A stretch of 64,000 nt of DNA. It comes from Natronosalvus rutilus. Lineage in GTDB: Archaea > Halobacteriota > Halobacteria > Halobacteriales > Natrialbaceae. Below the pieces are notes generated by a model. It did no database searches, had not been told where the DNA came from, and saw nothing but the letters and a program-made list of their open reading frames with translations. The position numbers and the translations under genes are program-made. The DNA is taken from contig NZ_CP100355.1 of assembly GCF_024204665.1 (NCBI RefSeq), positions 1 to 64,000 on the forward strand, written 5' to 3'. Every line of letters begins with the position of its first letter. Position 1 is the stretch's first letter. This document shows positions 39,431 through 47,833 of this stretch, one piece after another.

Positions 39431-42400
39431 ATGAAGCGACTCCTGACGGCGCTTCTCGTCGGCACGGTCGTGGCCGGACTGATCGTCGGCGCTTCCGGAT
39501 TGACGCTCGGGGGCGCTCCGTTCGCCGGTCCGGGAGACGGCGAGACGCGACCCGAATCCTCCGCTGGTGGCGAAGTTATCGGCGGGGTAAGCAACGTCTC
39601 GGAGAACGGTGTCGAGCTCGTCGAGTTCGACGAGACGCACTCGAGCGCACGACAGAACGGGGTAATTGCCCAGTCGAAGCGAGAGGCGGCCGAAGAGGGT
39701 GCCGACCGAGGGATCGAACTCGCCCAGGCACAGGGCGTAAACGTCACCCAGGAGCAGCGAGAGGCCGCGACGTCCGCCGCCGTCGATGCCGTCGAACAAC
39801 ATCAGGAGGCGACCGTCGAACAGATTCAGCGCGCCGCAACGGGGGCGGTTCACGGCGCGTTGCTTCAGCACCAGGCGGTCAACGTTACGCAGTTACAGTC
39901 GGCCGTGACCGGCAGCGCGGACGGTGCACTGAGCCAGCACCAGTCGGCCAACGTCACGCAGATGCAGAACGCGGCGTGGGGTGGCGCCCACGGTGCGCTC
40001 GACCAGCACCAGGTGGTGACGGTCGAGCAGATCCAATACGCGGCCCGCGGCGCCGCTGCAGGCGCCGCCCGTGAGGCCGGCGAGAAGGGAGTCGGTCACG
40101 TCGGCGTGATCCAGGAGGCGGCCCAGGGTGCGGCCCACGGGGCGCTCGAGGCCGTGAAGAAGCAGAAGCACCCCTCTCGACAGCACGTCGTCCAGCGCCA
40201 GGAGATAACCGTCGAGCAAATTCAACACGCGGCAGCAGGGGCGGCAGCGGGGGTCGTCGACGGGCACCAGGAACAGCGCGTCCGGGTCGAGCAGCGACAG
40301 CACGTGACGATCAAACAGGCCCAGACGGCTGCGATGGGCGCCGCGAAGGGGGCGCTCGTCCAGAAGCAACGGGTCACCGTCGAGCAGACGCAGGTCGCCG
40401 CACGTGGTGCCGCGAAGGGCGTGCTATCGGTTACGCAAATCCAGAGGGTAGAGATCACGCAGATCCAGGCGGCGGCGACTGGCGCCGCGACGGGCGCAAT
40501 CTACCAGAGTCAGGAGGCGACGATCGAACAGATCCAGGCAGCGGCGATCGGCGCGGCGAAGGGAACGATCGTCCAGAAACAGGAGATACACGTGACGCAG
40601 GTCCAGTACGCCGCTCGCGGCGCCGCGATGGGTGCCGTCGAATCCGCGATCCAGTACCAGGCCGTCACCGTTACGCAGATCCAGGCCGCGTCGATGGGCG
40701 CCGGAAAGGGCGCCGTCGAACAGACGCAGACGGTGCGCGTACAGCAGGTACAGACCATCGCCCGCGGCGCGGCGAAGGGCGTCCTGTCGGTCGCCCAGGA
40801 ACAGCGCGTGACGATCCTCCAGATACAGAAGGTGGCCGAAGTAACGTGCCAGTCGGTCTCGGAGGCGGTTCAGGACCAGCGAGTCACCGTCGAGCAAGTT
40901 CAGCGGATCAGCGAACGCACCGCTGCGGACACGACCCAGCAGACGGTCGATGATGATCTCGGCCGCGAGGTCGACATCCGCGAGCGCGCGAAGGCGAGTG
41001 CAGTCGATAGAACCGCCGAGGAAGAGCCTGCGGAGGGGGAGGCGACGGTGAGCACCGTCGGTCAGACGATCGACGGAGAGACGGTCACAGTCGACGACGT
41101 GACGCTCTCGGAGGGCGGGTTCGTCGCCGTCCACGACGGGAGGTGGCTAGAAGGCGAACGCACCGACAGCGTGATCGGCGTCTCCGAGTACCTCGAGCCC
41201 GGCGAACACGAATCGGTGACCGTTACCCTGTTCGAGGACGTTCCAGGGGCCGAGTACGAAGTCGACGCGCTCGAGGCCGGCGAGCACTCGCTCTTCGTCG
41301 TCCCGTATCGCGACGGCGACGACGACCAGGAATTCGATCGCATCGACACCGACGGCGGGGCAGATCCGCCGTACGTCCGGCAGGGCGGCGAACTGGTGAT
41401 GGCATCGCTCGAGGCGACGGTCGCCGAGGAACGGTCCGCCGACCTCGAGGTCGCCGATCAGACCGGAAACGGAGAAACGGTGACCGTCGAACGCGCGACG
41501 GCGAACGTCGAATTCTACGTCGAAGCGAGTGACGGCGATCGGGTCGTCCAGAGCGAAGGATTCGGGGCGAACGAGACCGCTGGCAATCTGACGCTCGACC
41601 TGGACCCGCCGCTCGAGGAGGCTACCGACCTCGAGGTGACGATCCGTGCCGTCGAGGACGGTGAGGGACTCGAGTCGGCGGAGGTCGCGTACGACGTCGA
41701 CGCTGCCGGTGCCGACGAACCAGCGGACGAACCGGCGGAGGCGACGGCGAACCTGAACGTTTCGGACCAGACCGGCGACGGCGAGACGCTGTCCGTCGAC
41801 CGGGCGAGCGCGGACGAGGAGTTCGCGGTCGAAGTGCGCTACGATGGCGAGGTGGTGAGAACCGACGCTATCGACGCCGACGAGGTGGTCGAGAACCTGA
41901 CCCTCGAACTCGATCCGCCCATCGAGGCGGATGCAGAGGTTGAGATTGCCGTCGTCGCGATCGAAGACGACGAGGACCTGGTCGTCGAAGCGATCGAGTA
42001 CGCTGTCGATGCGGAACCGGTCGAGCCGACAGCCGATCTCGAGGTGACGGACCAGACCGGCGACGGGAGGACCCTCACCGTCGAAAACGCCACCGCGACT
42101 GTCGACTTCGTCGTCGAGGCTCGTTACGACGATGAGGCGGTGCAAAGCGAATCGTTCGACGCGGACGAGGTCGTCGAGAACCTGACGCTCGAACTTGATC
42201 CACCCCTCGAGGAGACCAGCGACGTCGAAATCGCCGTCAGGGCCAACGACGACGATTCGGAACTGGCGGTTCAGACGATCGAGTACGCCGTCGAGGCTCC
42301 GGTGATGTTCCTCAATTGTACCGCGCTCGAGGTCCGGGACGCGGCCGAAATCGATCGCCTCTCGCTAAGCGTCTCGTACCTGGAGGGCCCTCTGGCGGGT

Positions 42401-43702
42401 AACGAGACGGAACTCGAGGAGGAAGTGCTCGCGGAAACGGTCGACGGCCCGATCGAAGACGGGACCGTCCTCTCGACGGCTGATCTGTACCCCTTCATCG
42501 AGTTCACCCACTACGTCGAGTTCGCGTCCCTCTCCGAAGCCGACGACGAGAACGTGGTCGAGAATCCGCATCCGGCAACCGTCGAGGACTGTCAGGAACT
42601 CGGCTTCGGCGAGCGCCCGACCGCCGACGTCGCGTTCGGCGACCAGGAGACCGACGGGACGAGCGCGACCGTCGACGCCGTTTCCCTCTCGGAAGGCGGC
42701 TTCGTCGCCCTCTACGAGGCGGAAGCGCCGGTCGAGAACGAGACCGTCCTCGGCGTCTCCGAGTACCTCGAACCCGGCGAGCACGAGAACGTCACCGTCG
42801 ACCTCGCGGAATCGATCGACGAGGACCGAACGCTCGTCGCGATCGTCCACCGCGATCTGACCGGCGACGGCCAGTTTACGTTCGAGAGCGTCGACGAAAT
42901 CGGCGTCCACGACGGCCCGTACCTCGACGCGGACGGCGACCCCGTCGCCGACGAGGCCGAACTCCTCCTCTCGGCCGAGTTCGCCGTCTCTATCGTCGAC
43001 GCGCCTGAAACCGTCGAGTCCGACCAGCCGATCGAACTATCCATCGAGGTGGAGAACCGCGGCGCCGGTCCCGGCGAGGCGCCCGTGGTGATCGACGTCG
43101 GTGCGCAGGAGGCGGTCGTCGGAGAGTTCGTCACGCTTTCACCCGGCGAGACGACGACGCTCACGGTGGCCGTCGACCCGCCGACGGACGCCGTCGGCGA
43201 ACTCGAGGTGACAGTTCGCGTCGACGACCCAGACGTGGCCACGCCCGAGGAGGGAAGCGATTCGGTGACCGTCACCGTCGAGGAGGCCGGCGAACCGGCG
43301 TTCGAGGTGACGGCCCTCGACGCACCCGAAACCGTCGAGGCGGGCGAGTTCATCGAGGTCGCCGCGGAGGTGACGAATGTCGGTGAGGCTCCCGGTGAAG
43401 CCGAAGTAGTGTTCGACATCGACGGCTTCGACGCCGCTACCGATTTAGTCTCGCTCTCTCCCGACGAAACGGCGACGCTCGTCGTCACCGTCGAGACCGG
43501 CCCGGGTGACGTCCGCGACCTCGAGATCGGAGTTCGCACGGCCAACGACCGGACGTCGACGACCGTCGAGGTGATCGGGTCTTCGGATGGAGGCGACCAG
43601 CAGGACGCTCGAGCGGGACCGACGGCTGGGACGGACCCGGCAGTCTCGGCGTCCGCGTACGTACCGAGCTATTTGATCTCGGTCGATCGGGTAGACTCGT
43701 AG
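39431..43702 (+). CDS. Giant exported protein with about 14 Q/A/G-rich repeats and surface beta domains
   Basis: A 1423-residue protein, likely Sec-exported (MKRLLTALLVGTVVAGLIVG). Residues about 126-505 hold some 14 copies of a 23-25 residue repeat of the form x-V-T-V-E-Q-I-Q-x-A-A-x-G-A-A-x-G-A-L-x-x-x-Q: a short beta-type VTVEQIQ followed by a small-residue helix-type GAAxGA. NVTQ sequons in the first copies could be N-glycosylated. Then come a DUF7282-like domain (TVDDVTLSEGGFVAVHDG), three copies of an about 95-residue beta domain (each starting ADLEVxDQTGDGxTL), a further DUF7282-like domain (about residue 1070 on) and two CARDB-like domains (APETVESDQPIELSIEVENR, APETVEAGEFIEVAAEVTN). 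No C-terminal PGF-CTERM or membrane anchor is seen. Function unknown; adhesion or a filament is a guess. Confidence 0.85.
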   Translation: MKRLLTALLVGTVVAGLIVGASGLTLGGAPFAGPGDGETRPESSAGGEVIGGVSNVSENGVELVEFDETHSSARQNGVIAQSKREAAEEGADRGIELAQAQGVNVTQEQREAATSAAVDAVEQHQEATVEQIQRAATGAVHGALLQHQAVNVTQLQSAVTGSADGALSQHQSANVTQMQNAAWGGAHGALDQHQVVTVEQIQYAARGAAAGAAREAGEKGVGHVGVIQEAAQGAAHGALEAVKKQKHPSRQHVVQRQEITVEQIQHAAAGAAAGVVDGHQEQRVRVEQRQHVTIKQAQTAAMGAAKGALVQKQRVTVEQTQVAARGAAKGVLSVTQIQRVEITQIQAAATGAATGAIYQSQEATIEQIQAAAIGAAKGTIVQKQEIHVTQVQYAARGAAMGAVESAIQYQAVTVTQIQAASMGAGKGAVEQTQTVRVQQVQTIARGAAKGVLSVAQEQRVTILQIQKVAEVTCQSVSEAVQDQRVTVEQVQRISERTAADTTQQTVDDDLGREVDIRERAKASAVDRTAEEEPAEGEATVSTVGQTIDGETVTVDDVTLSEGGFVAVHDGRWLEGERTDSVIGVSEYLEPGEHESVTVTLFEDVPGAEYEVDALEAGEHSLFVVPYRDGDDDQEFDRIDTDGGADPPYVRQGGELVMASLEATVAEERSADLEVADQTGNGETVTVERATANVEFYVEASDGDRVVQSEGFGANETAGNLTLDLDPPLEEATDLEVTIRAVEDGEGLESAEVAYDVDAAGADEPADEPAEATANLNVSDQTGDGETLSVDRASADEEFAVEVRYDGEVVRTDAIDADEVVENLTLELDPPIEADAEVEIAVVAIEDDEDLVVEAIEYAVDAEPVEPTADLEVTDQTGDGRTLTVENATATVDFVVEARYDDEAVQSESFDADEVVENLTLELDPPLEETSDVEIAVRANDDDSELAVQTIEYAVEAPVMFLNCTALEVRDAAEIDRLSLSVSYLEGPLAGNETELEEEVLAETVDGPIEDGTVLSTADLYPFIEFTHYVEFASLSEADDENVVENPHPATVEDCQELGFGERPTADVAFGDQETDGTSATVDAVSLSEGGFVALYEAEAPVENETVLGVSEYLEPGEHENVTVDLAESIDEDRTLVAIVHRDLTGDGQFTFESVDEIGVHDGPYLDADGDPVADEAELLLSAEFAVSIVDAPETVESDQPIELSIEVENRGAGPGEAPVVIDVGAQEAVVGEFVTLSPGETTTLTVAVDPPTDAVGELEVTVRVDDPDVATPEEGSDSVTVTVEEAGEPAFEVTALDAPETVEAGEFIEVAAEVTNVGEAPGEAEVVFDIDGFDAATDLVSLSPDETATLVVTVETGPGDVRDLEIGVRTANDRTSTTVEVIGSSDGGDQQDARAGPTAGTDPAVSASAYVPSYLISVDRVDS
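39806..40945 (+). repeat. Degenerate tandem repeat coding for the Q/A/G-rich units
   Basis: About 14 in-frame units of 69-75 bases each, one with a longer insertion (near 40060-40200). DNA identity between units is low while the amino acid pattern is kept, so this is an old protein repeat under selection, not a recent DNA expansion. Confidence 0.75.
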
Positions 43703-43937
43703 CCGCCCGAAACCACCGGTCGTAGCGCTCGAAGGGCGTCAAAACTCGATCCCCCTCGTGATTTCACCGGATTGTGCAAAAACAGCGACCGTCGCGTCCG
43801 CTTACAGAGGGTCGAGGAGAAAGCCCACAACTTCAGTCGTGAGATGAATACGACAACTCGTGAACACTCCACATTCGATAGCAAGCCCGAGTCTCCAACG
43901 CGAATACATAGGTTTACAATCACTTGCCTCGTAGCGA
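43703..43937 (+). mobile_element. Left end of the second tnpB element, with right-end-like hairpin
   Basis: Around 43828-43845 the sequence CACAACTTCAGTCGTG forms a hairpin with one mismatch, nearly the same as the right-end hairpin of this element at 45298-45316. The preceding codons can be read as VRLQRVEEKAHNFSRE, similar to TnpB tails. It is either the left end of the element or the relic right end of an older copy. An AT-rich ATACATAGGTTTACAATC before the ATG is the likely promoter. Confidence 0.5.
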
Positions 43938-45278
43938 ATGACGATGAAGCGAGCCAACCAGTTCAGCGTTCGCCCAAACTCTACGCGAGAGCGTGAGGCG
44001 TTCGTTCGCTGGTTGGACGCTTCAGCCAGTCTCTGGAACGAGACTAACTACGCTCGCCGCCAGGCCTTCCTCTCAGACGGTGAGAGCATCTGGGACGCCG
44101 ATACCGGCACACTCGAAGGTAAATACAAAGGCGTCCTCAGCAGTTCGGTCGCTCAACAAATCATTCGGAGGAACTCCGAATCGTGGCGATCCTTCTTCTC
44201 ACTCAATGAGAAGTACCACGCGGGTAAACTCAGCGAGAAACCGTCGCCACCGGGGTACTGGGGAAACGAGGAAGACGGGCGTGTACTTCGCACCTACGTC
44301 CGCAACGACCAGTACACCCTCGAGTTCGGAGAACGATCACGCCTCGAAGTGCCGATTGGCTCCGACCTCAAGGACAAACTGGGATTGAACCGAAATCAAC
44401 GCCTTCGCCTCGAGATTTCAGGCAATTCGAAGTGGAGCGGCGAGCCGGGTCGGTTAGAGATCGTGTACGACGAACTCGCAGACACGTTCAGGGCTTTCCA
44501 ACCAGTCACCATCGACACTTCTCGACTGGATTCACCACTGGCTTCGGAAGAAGCCGCTCTGGACGTTGGCGCGAACACCCTCGTCGCCTGCACAACCACA
44601 ACTGGCTCACAATACCTGTTCAGCGGCCGCGATGAGTTCGAGCGATTCCGCGAGACCACTGAGCGAATCGCAGACCTGCAAGCACTCCTCGAAGACCAGC
44701 GCACGTCGAGCAAGCGCATCGACCGCCTGTATTGCAAGCGTACGAACCGACGCAACCACGCGCAAGATGCACTCGTCCGAGACCTCGTGGAGCGTCTATA
44801 CTCCGAAGGTGTATCCACGCTGTACGTTGGCGACCTCACGGGCATCCTTTCCAGGCACTGGTCGGCATGGGTGAACGAGAAGATACACACCTTCTGGGCG
44901 TACCGGCGGTTCATCAACCGTCTCGAATGCGTCTGTGAAGAGTATGGAATCGCGGTCGACGAGAGGTCCGAGGCGTGGACGAGTCAAGAGTGCCCCCAGT
45001 GTGGCGAGCGTGACGAGACCGTTCGTCACGAGGATACGCTGACGTGTCCGTGTGGGTTCGAGGGGCACGCTGATCTCGTTGCATCGGAGTCGTTCCTGAG
45101 ACGGCAGAACAACACAGCCGGGTCGATGGCACGGCCCGTGTACCTCAAGTGGAACAAACACAGTTGGCGGGAACACCATAGCCCGCCCTCCCTCGCGGAG
45201 ACAACGGCCAACGAGGCGTACACAAACCAGAGTACCGCGTCGAGCGGGAATCTCGCTCTCGGGGACTCAGACGACTGA
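43938..45278 (+). CDS. tnpB: TnpB-like protein with altered RuvC motif II
   Basis: A 446-residue TnpB of the IS1341-type group. RuvC D209 is in [10 protein letters not shown], and the last Asp D379 is in [10 protein letters not shown]. The place of the catalytic Glu reads LYVGDLTGI, with Gly298-Asp299 instead of Glu-Asp. The zinc region is CPQCGERDE ... CPCGFEG. I recall the same VGDL wording in many haloarchaeal TnpBs, so it is a clade trait and not a fresh mutation. The enzyme may use another acidic residue, or cut poorly. No tnpA is adjacent. It runs toward the cupin gene. Confidence 0.88.
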
Positions 45279-45297
45279 GACTCCCACGAGAGGAATT

Positions 45298-45326
45298 CCA
45301 CGACCTTCAGTCGTGGGTGGATGTCA
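45298..45326 (+). ncRNA. Right end of second tnpB element (hairpin plus GGATGTCA)
   Basis: CCACGAC-CTTCA-GTCGTGG is a perfect 7-base stem at 45298-45316, followed by GTGGATGTCA ending at 45326. The same end occurs at 45644-45672 and 51337-51365. By analogy with omega RNA, the guide would start at 45327, inside the cupin gene on its antisense strand. Confidence 0.65.
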
Positions 45327-45680
45327 AGGCGCGCCCGTGACGACCATCAGCGAGTCGTCCGCCGTAAACCGTAGTTCGCGCGTCGTCTCCGGGTCGACCC
45401 GCACGGCGTCACCGGGCGCGAGGTCGACCTGGTCGCCGTCAAGCTGGATGGTCGCCTCGCCCTCGAGCAACAGGTACACTCCCTCCTGGCCATCGTCTTC
45501 GTGGTCGTGTTCTAGTCCGTCCCAGCCCTCGTCGGCTTCGATGACGGTTAGCCCGTGGGTCTCGCAGTCGAGGGCGTCCCGAAGGAAGGACATACCCGGC
45601 GCGCGCGGTTCGACATCCTCGTACGAGGTTGCGTCGTACCCCGTGACATCCTCCTCGCCGTTGACGGCGAGGCTTCCCAC
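45324..45680 (-). CDS. Cupin-domain protein trapped between two TnpB right ends
   Basis: A 118-residue reading frame from GTG 45680. The cupin core lies in GLTVIEADEG, EHDHEDDGQEGVYLLLEGEA and LAPGDAVRVDP, with the metal ligands His/His/Glu in HDHEDDGQE. The first 12 residues (MGSLAVNGEEDV) are encoded by the right-end hairpin of the tnpB element behind it, and the stop codon TGA comes from the right end of the other element. Only about 45327-45643 is native cupin DNA. Whether it is expressed and stable is unknown; transcripts of the upstream tnpB could run into it. Confidence 0.8.
   Translation of the reverse strand: MGSLAVNGEEDVTGYDATSYEDVEPRAPGMSFLRDALDCETHGLTVIEADEGWDGLEHDHEDDGQEGVYLLLEGEATIQLDGDQVDLAPGDAVRVDPETTRELRFTADDSLMVVTGAP
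45644..45672 (-). ncRNA. Right end of third tnpB element (hairpin plus GGATGTCA)
   Basis: On the minus strand CCTCGCC-GTCAAC-GGCGAGG is a perfect 7-base stem (45653-45672), followed by AGGATGTCA ending at 45644. The guide of its omega RNA would start at 45643 with the sense strand of the cupin 5' part. Confidence 0.65.
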
Positions 45681-45696
45681 GCATGGGGAATACCAA

Positions 45697-47007
45697 TTAG
45701 TCGTCGTCTCCAGAACCTTCGGTTCTGGCGGGCTGCACGAGACTCTTAGTCTCGTGAACGCTGGCAGAGGGTTTCGACTCTTCGCAGGCCGTGAGCGTCA
45801 TCTGTGCTGGTACGCTCTGCTCACGGTGAGTCGTGGCGGTGTCACAACCGCGCCCATCCCGAGGCGAGTCATCGCGCTCCGCCTTGTCAAGCGGGACGCT
45901 CTCTCCCCACGGGTCAATCCGTCGTGCAATATTCGCGGAAGCGTTTATGTCGGCCTGAAACGTCGAAACGTGACAGTCGTTGTTCGGACACCGGAACTCA
46001 GCCTGGGAGTTCCGCCGCCCGATACGGTGGCACGAGTGGCACGTCTGCGACGTGTACGCCGGGTTCACGTACTCGACCGGGATGCCTGCTTCCGTCGCCT
46101 TGTCCTCGATGCGACCTTGGAGTCGGGCGAACGCCCACGAGTGAAGCCGACGGTTCATGTACTTCCCGTAGTCGAGACGCTCACGGATGTACGTCAAGTC
46201 CTCCATCACCAACACCGGGTTCTCGAACTGTTTGGCGTACTCAACGGCCTGCCGAGACGCCTTCTCCACGAAGTCGGTGAGTGCGTTCTGGTAGTGCGAG
46301 AAGTGGTCTTCAATCCGCCACTCGGATACGTCACGCTCTTGGAGTCGTTTCAGGGTCGTGTGCATCTCTTTACGGAGATGCTTCGCTCTGCTTCCGCTAC
46401 ACACGAACGGGTCAGTCGGAGAACCGTCCTTGAGGGCACAGCCCGTGATGAGGGCAGTCTCTCCGATGTCTAAGCCGATGTGCGTGGTGTCACCGTCCGT
46501 TGCTGGTTCTTCGACCAGGTACTCGACGGTGACATGCAGTACCCAGTTCTTCCGGTGCTTCTGAAGCCGTATCTCGCCCGCCTTCGCGTCCTCTGATACG
46601 AGGGCGTGCCAGAGGTCTTCCTGTTCAGGGTTGATGCGGAGCGGAATCCAAAAGTTCGTTCCCCGACCGGGACGGGGAATCCACCACGTGAACTCGTAGT
46701 GACGTTCTTCGGAGTGGTCGAACGTCGCAGCTTGATTCGTGAGGCGTATCGGGTGTTCGTCGTCCAATTCTTTCGCGTTGTACGTCTTGTGGAGTTTCGG
46801 GACGTAGTTGCAGAGGGCGGCTTTGGCCTGATACGGCAGGTCGTAGGGCGTCACGATGTCACTCACTGCCGACATAGTACTCGCCCCAGCGTCGAACGCT
46901 TCTTGCAGACCGTCACGGTAGGTTTCGAGCAGGTCGTTGAGTTTCGACTGCTCGTGCGCGGTCGGTGGGGCAAACGTCGCTTGAAGCGTCTTAGTTATCG
47001 TCGTCAC
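45697..47007 (-). CDS. tnpB: TnpB of IS1341-type element with intact RuvC site
   Basis: A 436-residue TnpB with D180 in IGLDIGETAL, E269 in LVMEDLTYI, D353 in QADINASANI, and the zinc ligands C323, C326, C340, C345. The set looks catalytically complete. The N-terminal part (KTLQATFAPPTAHEQSKLND) is typical for the subgroup. It overlaps by 17 bases a small ORF upstream that probably belongs to the same unit. No TnpA is present. It ends 17 bases before the GTG that opens the cupin frame on the same strand. Confidence 0.93.
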   Translation of the reverse strand: MTTITKTLQATFAPPTAHEQSKLNDLLETYRDGLQEAFDAGASTMSAVSDIVTPYDLPYQAKAALCNYVPKLHKTYNAKELDDEHPIRLTNQAATFDHSEERHYEFTWWIPRPGRGTNFWIPLRINPEQEDLWHALVSEDAKAGEIRLQKHRKNWVLHVTVEYLVEEPATDGDTTHIGLDIGETALITGCALKDGSPTDPFVCSGSRAKHLRKEMHTTLKRLQERDVSEWRIEDHFSHYQNALTDFVEKASRQAVEYAKQFENPVLVMEDLTYIRERLDYGKYMNRRLHSWAFARLQGRIEDKATEAGIPVEYVNPAYTSQTCHSCHRIGRRNSQAEFRCPNNDCHVSTFQADINASANIARRIDPWGESVPLDKAERDDSPRDGRGCDTATTHREQSVPAQMTLTACEESKPSASVHETKSLVQPARTEGSGDDD

Positions 47008-47134
47008 TGGCGTCTAATCCTTTCTCGATTAGTTCGGCGTAGGCGCGAGGATGTCGGATGCCATTGTCGCGGGCGTACTCTTTCACCCGCTCGTGGAGGT
47101 CGCTCCCTCGCTCCATATCGATTTCAGTTCGCAC
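46991..47134 (-). CDS. Small ribbon-helix-helix-like protein co-encoded with tnpB
   Basis: A 47-residue ORF from GTG 47134 (ATG at 47116 is the alternative) that overlaps the tnpB start by 17 bases. It begins VRTEIDMERG, a possible DNA-binding beta strand, followed by two predicted helices (SDLHERVKEYARDNG and RHPRAYAELIEKGL) and an acidic end. This is the layout of ribbon-helix-helix repressors. I infer a regulator of the element. The coupling by overlap suggests that both are translated from one message. Confidence 0.6.
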   Translation of the reverse strand: MRTEIDMERGSDLHERVKEYARDNGIRHPRAYAELIEKGLDASDDDN

Positions 47135-47458
47135 AACTCTTTGAACGTTTTCTTGGTGCTAATAACTTCTGTTTGGCATTCAGACTGCTGTAGACGGTGG
47201 GTTGCGTAGTCAAGTGACGCGATTCACGCCCGCCGTGAACGGCGGGATTCTCTCGCTGTTCAAAGATAGGAGATTTCTCGCACTCGTCGCCTATGAAACC
47301 ACGCGAAGCGGAAATTGACTGTGAACGTGCTTCGATCCGTTGTGGCCGAGAGACACAAACCTACTACGGCCCGAAACGCGGACATCGGTCGGAGGCCCCG
47401 ATGAACGCGATTCACGTGAGGACGAATCGCCACGGTTTTGTGATGTGGACCCAATATC
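47135..47458. mobile_element. Left end of third tnpB element and flank
   Basis: CCCGCC-GTGAAC-GGCGGG at 47229-47246 is a perfect 6-base stem hairpin with the same loop as the hairpin at 51812-51831, and marks the left end of the minus-strand element. From about 47260 to 47458 no gene is seen; the rhodanese promoter (CCAATATCATG) lies at the end. Confidence 0.55.
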
Positions 47459-47833
47459 ATGTTAATGAGTACGATCCGTCCGGACGAACTGGACGACCGA
47501 CTCGAGTCGGGGGAGGGGCCGTTTTTACTCGACATCCGTCCGAGGCCGGACTTCGAGTCACAGGCGATCGAGCACAGCCACAACGTGCCGGTCTACGACG
47601 AGTTACGCCGAGGTGACGAGTCCGCACTCCAGGATCGGCTCGAGGAGATCCCGTCCGACGGGGAAGTGGTCGTCGTGTGCAAGATGGGCGTCGTCGCCAA
47701 GCGCGCGACCGACGTACTCACCGAGGAAGGATACGACGCGGCGACGCTCGCAGGCGGTATGAGTGGGTGGAACGGCTACCAGAAGGGGTCGCTAGGGTAC
47801 AAACTTCGGTCGTTGCTCTGGAAACTCCGGTAG
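47459..47833 (+). CDS. Single-domain rhodanese sulfurtransferase
   Basis: A 124-residue rhodanese domain. The active-site loop VVVCKMGVVAKRATDVL has the persulfide Cys. LLDIRPRPDFESQAIEHSHN is the CH2A motif, and GGMSGWNGY is the C-terminal CH2B motif. It transfers sulfane sulfur to cyanide or to cellular acceptors. ATG 47465 (two codons later) may be the real start. Confidence 0.9.
   Translation: MLMSTIRPDELDDRLESGEGPFLLDIRPRPDFESQAIEHSHNVPVYDELRRGDESALQDRLEEIPSDGEVVVVCKMGVVAKRATDVLTEEGYDAATLAGGMSGWNGYQKGSLGYKLRSLLWKLR

Follow-up and report, generated by a model that had tools for sequence, protein, structure and literature searches.

Why should one small gene of a haloarchaeon begin and end inside the termini of two different mobile elements, and is such a gene under the watch of the RNA-guided nucleases that these elements encode? 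The question is raised by the first 64,000 nucleotides of contig NZ_CP100355.1 (the window, that is, the whole stretch of DNA analysed) in the 4.3 Mb haloarchaeal genome of Natronosalvus rutilus (G000). In this window, a minus-strand gene encoding a Cupin_2 domain (Pfam, E 4e-9) lies between two convergent tnpB genes, each of which is followed by a hairpin and by GGATGTCA at the right end of its element (Table 1). Our analysis makes it highly probable that two independent and survivable insertions of IS200/IS605-family tnpB elements hit both ends of this single cupin gene. The insertions are considered independent because the minus-strand element is common to three congeneric species and the plus-strand element is absent from both sister species.

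The limits of the elements were set by the hairpins, by homologous copies and by empty sites. The GGATGTCA octamer was not used as evidence, its 3 matches against 1.55 expected not being significant alone. An earlier note on this DNA had recognized that both elements end with the hairpin and GGATGTCA, and that the DNA between them codes for the cupin. Both statements hold, with the ends corrected from 45326 and 45644 to 45327 and 45643, and with 315 native bases instead of 317. A repetitive ORF of 1423 amino acids with many VTQIQxAAxGAAxGA-like repeats (39431-43702, plus strand) adjoins the insertion site.

Table 1. Features of the cupin locus and of the two tnpB elements, with positions numbered along the window.
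Feature	Position	Strand	Remarks
TTAC target of plus element	43802..43805	+	reverse complement GTAA contained the native cupin stop TAA
Plus tnpB element, IS200/IS605-type, 1522 bp, no tnpA	43806..45327	+	block missing from both sister species
Plus TnpB, 446 aa	43938..45278	+	DVG at RuvC-I; RuvC-II Glu at alternative place
Plus right end: hairpin and GGATGTCAA	45298..45327	+	TCA gives the cupin its TGA stop
Cupin ORF as present, 118 aa	45324..45680	-	GTG start in minus element, TGA stop from plus element
Predicted guide of plus element, GGCGCGCCCGTGACGACCAT	45328..45347	+	antisense, at the 3' end of the cupin; follows from the guide rule of TnpB
Remaining native cupin coding, 315 bp	45328..45642	-	from base 3 of the ATG to base 2 of the final sense codon
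Predicted guide of minus element, GGGGTACGACGCAACCTCGT	45623..45642	-	sense, at the 5' end of the cupin; follows from the guide rule of TnpB
Minus right end: GTG, hairpin and GGATGTCAC	45643..45680	-	12 in-frame codons (VGSLAVNGEEDV) and AC of ACG
Minus tnpB element, IS200/IS605-type, 1623 bp, no tnpA	45643..47265	-	common to three congeneric species
Minus TnpB, 436 aa	45697..47007	-	canonical D-E-D motifs
CTAT target of minus element	47266..47269	-	AT forms bases 1 and 2 of the native ATG of the cupin

The history of the 3' end is recorded in related genomes. The cupin has counterparts in two congeneric genomes, at 96% identity in G006 and at 93% in G007, and the DNA of both aligns at 92-96% on either side of the plus element, with a gap only at 43806-45327. 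In these two sister species (L002 and L003) the empty site reads GTCCGCTTAC joined to GGTGCGCC, with the junction at TTAC/GG. This empty sequence establishes that the element sits 3' of TTAC and ends with GGATGTCAA; the insertion occurred 3' of a fixed tetranucleotide without duplication, and other plus-type copies of the family likewise lie 3' of TTAC. A single gain in the G000 lineage is the simplest history. The native end of the gene, CCG TAA in the sister species, became CCT TGA here and the protein ends with the same ...VVTGAP. Since the cupin of the sister species ends identically via TAA, the TGA stop changed nothing in the protein. The junction sequence bears out the proposal that this stop is formed by the right end of the plus element. 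The earlier note had also named, as grounds for refutation, a strain with the same cupin termini and no elements; for the plus element two species of this kind exist, with the same C-terminus, and to describe the cupin as trapped was an overstatement as regards its 3' side. Elsewhere, a tiny palindrome made of a left end and a right end without tnpB (L056:422-475), preceded by TTAC and ending in GTCAA, seems to derive from the plus element as a minimal form.

At the other end of the gene, comparison revealed a minus right junction that is identical in all three species. Aligned copies of the family fix the ends of minus-type elements, which begin with C immediately after [C/T]TAT and finish with the last base of GGATGTCAC, a final C common to about 70 other copies. 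Subterminal hairpin ends were conserved and the target was fixed (72 distinct right ends). When the flanks of the element are joined, ATCTCCTAT to GGGGTACGACGC, they read ATG GGG TAC GAC, and homologues agree with this reconstruction in starting with ATGGG(A/C)TACGA (in L005, ATGGGATACGAC, MGYD). We infer that the minus element split the cupin start codon as AT/G, the codon now being ACG, and an unoccupied 5' end would read CTAT followed directly by GGGGTACGAC. The AT/G junction at the cupin is reconstructed rather than read, because no genome in the genus has this cupin without the minus element: the other five genomes of the genus in which the empty site was sought have distant cupins only, and a GTDB scan for cupin relatives recovered only homologues at 48-49%, in Haloplanus and Halomicrobium. 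The GTG start and the 12 N-terminal codons do come from the minus right end, as had been proposed. Two further observations concern other copies. In L073:1192-1290 the CTAT-type left-end motif occurs twice in tandem before tnpB, and L099 and L120, from different genomes, have the right flank ACCAGCGGGG in common but not the left one, a pattern that would fit recombination at one end.

Start codons are split by other copies as well. The ACG of the element copy at L089 (within GTC ACG AGC CAG) stands precisely where ten orthologues from the genus have an ATG, and orthologues of a Tat-signal protein have ATG at the element junction of L097. L074 is probably a further split of this kind, its genus providing no close orthologue from which an empty site could be read. 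L110 has a G at the junction and was left uncounted, the gene probably starting further in. In the start-split Tat-signal gene (L097 / L176) the leader supplied by the element has no in-frame start and the gene is possibly silenced, in contrast to the cupin.

Taken as a sequence of events, these junctions point to two steps, the order of which is shown. A CTAT-target element would have inserted between AT and G of the cupin start before the three species split, cutting the gene from its promoter and start while its right end supplied GTG and 12 in-frame codons. Later, and in the G000 lineage only, a TTAC-target element inserted antisense at the TAA stop, where its terminal TCA rebuilt a TGA stop and left the protein end unchanged. 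Both insertions would have survived because the reading frame was left unbroken. No tnpA was found inside either element, which sets them apart from IS605 proper, and the G000 genome encodes four Y1 TnpA genes elsewhere; the elements were presumably mobilised in trans by TnpA.

It is important to establish whether the interrupted cupin is still a gene. The three species diverged only after the minus insertion, so that the dN/dS of the cupin measures selection since that event. Values across 106 codons in the three species were 0.088, 0.128 and 0.152 (Fisher p 4e-6, 3e-7 and 6e-5), and this codon record indicates that the cupin is under purifying selection since the minus insertion. The 12 element-derived codons are invariant among the three species (0/36 nucleotides changed); other copies, too, keep the minus right end, where conservation presumably acts on the RNA. 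Upstream of the cupin, the GTG at 45680 offers the only in-frame start; each of the three species has it, and no clear ribosome site precedes it. One could take the cupin to be dying, a fragment still to decay after destruction of its start codon, and in this respect the change of ATG to ACG, the missing ribosome site before GTG and the element leader of L097, which offers that other start-split gene no in-frame start, are all as such a reading would have them. We nevertheless regard decay as quite improbable, given post-insertion dN/dS values of 0.09-0.15 and 106 codons without a stop or an indel in any of the three species. The cupin is instead very probably kept and translated from the GTG of the element, with MGSLAVNGEEDVTGYD as its predicted N-terminus, and its dependence on this GTG and on upstream transcription is plausible. 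With its native promoter now on the far side of the minus element, the cupin is likely to be transcribed through tnpB, an internal promoter being a possible alternative.

Both elements encode recognizable TnpB proteins. The plus TnpB matches OrfB_IS605 (PF01385, E 3e-24) and Cas12f1-like_TNB (PF07282, E 5e-15), and the minus TnpB matches PF07282 (E 2e-17). The RuvC D-E-D triad is canonical in the minus protein. In the plus protein, the alignment places a G at the canonical RuvC-II position and an E six residues ahead of the first cysteine of the zinc finger, which is the ExxxxxxCxxC motif of the E_alt arrangement of the RuvC-II Glu (PMC10711439). Judged by these motifs, neither protein looks dead. 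The plus TnpB resembles the TldR proteins, which are nuclease-dead TnpB-like repressors, in having no canonical RuvC-II Glu. However, this Glu was relocated rather than lost and does not indicate nuclease death, and assignment to TldR was ruled out. The minus-type tnpB of this locus decays in the sister species, with a frameshift near codon 140-145 in G007 and an early TAG near codon 402 in G006.

In studied systems, the guide of TnpB is taken from the bases that follow the right end of the element (PMC8612924). Flank sequences at this locus fit the expectation of the earlier note that the two guides would match the two ends of the cupin, one sense and one antisense (predicted guides in Table 1). 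That note went further and envisaged two nucleases watching one locus; in its full form, both TnpB/omega RNA complexes would act on the cupin and couple its expression to tnpB read-through. The predicted guide geometry is right for such a guard, both proteins have the full RuvC acidic set (one Glu at the alternative place), and purifying selection acts on the cupin, whose leader is invariant. However, the resident protospacers are preceded by TCAC (minus) and TCAA (plus), not by CTAT or TTAC, and without these TAMs they are, by the known TnpB rule, not targets. Furthermore, both sister species have the same end of the cupin without the plus element, and the cupin was kept where tnpB is frameshifted (G007) or shortened (G006). 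A match between guide and flank occurs at every TnpB element, so that a match to a neighbouring gene is no evidence of function; it is ordinary TnpB homing logic, valid for any such element beside a gene. We therefore find the idea of a two-guide guard very improbable, and the watching of one locus by two nucleases unsupported, since both protospacers are without a TAM and the insertions are independent and of different ages. By that rule, only element-less alleles would be targets, and under the two-insertion account the guides would be used against such alleles alone, that is, for homing. The TTAC is present at the empty site of G006, where 2/20 positions deviate from the plus guide; the minus guide has no other match at 0-2 mismatches in its own genome.

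The locus can be compared with known systems. Subterminal hairpins and the lack of target duplication are shared with IS200/IS605 elements (IS608, ISDra2) and with tnpB-only elements of the IS1341 type, as is a tnpB whose 3' RNA is expected to reach the flank. Insertion of the plus element 3' of a fixed short target, TTAC, recalls IS608. In contrast with IS608 and ISDra2 (targets TTAC and TTGAT), the minus element pairs CTAT with TCAC, and tnpA lies inside neither element. TnpB domains, catalytic residues and right-end hairpin are as in the TnpB/omega RNA (OMEGA) nucleases, from which a flank guide and a target-site TAM are expected here as predictions from sequence (PMC8612924); the alternative RuvC-II Glu of the plus TnpB is a difference (E_alt, PMC10711439). 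Similarly, an RNA over the tnpB 3' end would have the position of the haloarchaeal sotRNAs/omega RNAs (PMC12558985, RF02656, RF02657), but no Rfam sotRNA match (RF02656/RF02657) was found at E up to 1 in 43500-47600. The region offers only a weak match to HgcC (RF00062, E 0.015) at 45630-45729 on the minus strand, clearest at the right-end hairpin and at GGAGGA-GUCA; possibly the HgcC family is itself a right-end RNA of TnpB. Finally, IS605 stem loops at the 3' ends of Borrelia lipoprotein genes (PMC2775950) are similar in that IS605 ends overlap the 3' ends of coding sequences. In the portions of that report considered here, the Borrelia ends are free-standing remnants with no exact stop-codon replacement described, whereas the elements of the present locus are complete.

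The junctions at the cupin are not isolated. Across the family we surveyed right ends of three terminal types, 161 distinct ones in all, and in 29 of them an antisense gene runs into the element. The frame in which the terminal TCA provides a TGA stop was used by 23 of these 29 genes, the other frames by 5 and 1 (p 5e-7). In the background, which consisted of 400 kb of one genome (G000) processed with a simple home-made gene caller, this frame was the rarest (33 vs 112; CTAT 11 vs 38, TTAC 22 vs 74). The excess was robust to thresholds (Fisher p 1e-6 or lower). The 23 stop-rebuilt genes have no similarity to one another, and the nine for which both ends were resolved all had TAA or TAG as their native stop, with a synonymous change in the last codon. 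The third terminal type, represented by 28 right ends with GGATGTCAT (e.g., L257, L259, L290), rebuilds an antisense stop in 7/28. Both ends are known for 33 CTAT-type copies. Of these, 22 lie between genes and 3 within them; a start codon is split by another 3 and an antisense stop replaced by 5. Background CTAT sites (n=756) comprised 18 start codons, 14 antisense stops and 309 sites inside genes, and background TTAC sites (n=859) comprised 39 antisense stops and 424 sites inside genes. Start splitting was not enriched (4/72 CTAT-type sites, p 0.09 and 0.33), and a preference for start codons was rejected accordingly.

These patterns invite the explanation that insertion at gene ends is favoured, an antisense stop target being a harmless site that also yields a guide against conserved coding DNA, with better homing or persistence. 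The stop-rebuilding phase of 23 of the 29 antisense-coding right flanks speaks for it, threshold-robust and spread over unrelated genes, as does the share, by full gene calls, of start and antisense-stop sites together, 8/33 among CTAT-type copies against 32/756 among CTAT sites or 32/447 outside genes. Read antisense, the targets are stop codons (TAA in TTAC, TAG in CTAT) and the right end is TGA in the same register, and many CTAT-type right ends carry a GTG that is in frame after an AT/G split. However, intragenic copies are strongly depleted (3/33 vs 309/756), so that purging of gene-breaking insertions alone gives most of the excess at gene ends; the start-splitting component is not significant by itself, and the background is that of one genome. 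On balance, we consider favoured insertion possible but rather unlikely, and hold with similar reserve the related proposal that the termini of TnpB elements are suited to gene ends and make these elements persist there preferentially. The literature searched, in which subscription journals were thinly covered, provided no description of stop-rebuilding or start-splitting insertions.

The cupin therefore constitutes a datable case of a start codon lost to a mobile element in a gene that survives with its start inside the right end of that element, and also a case of a stop codon swapped with the protein unchanged. The survey turns a single odd locus into a countable rule on where tnpB elements are tolerated, and its stop-rebuilding right ends are a generalisation worth following. 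It raises the question of whether the targets and ends of tnpB elements lend themselves to harmless insertion at the ends of genes, with guides directed against conserved sequence. If this were true, insertions would leave the protein nearly intact while the element would gain a guide against conserved coding DNA, helping its homing into related strains.
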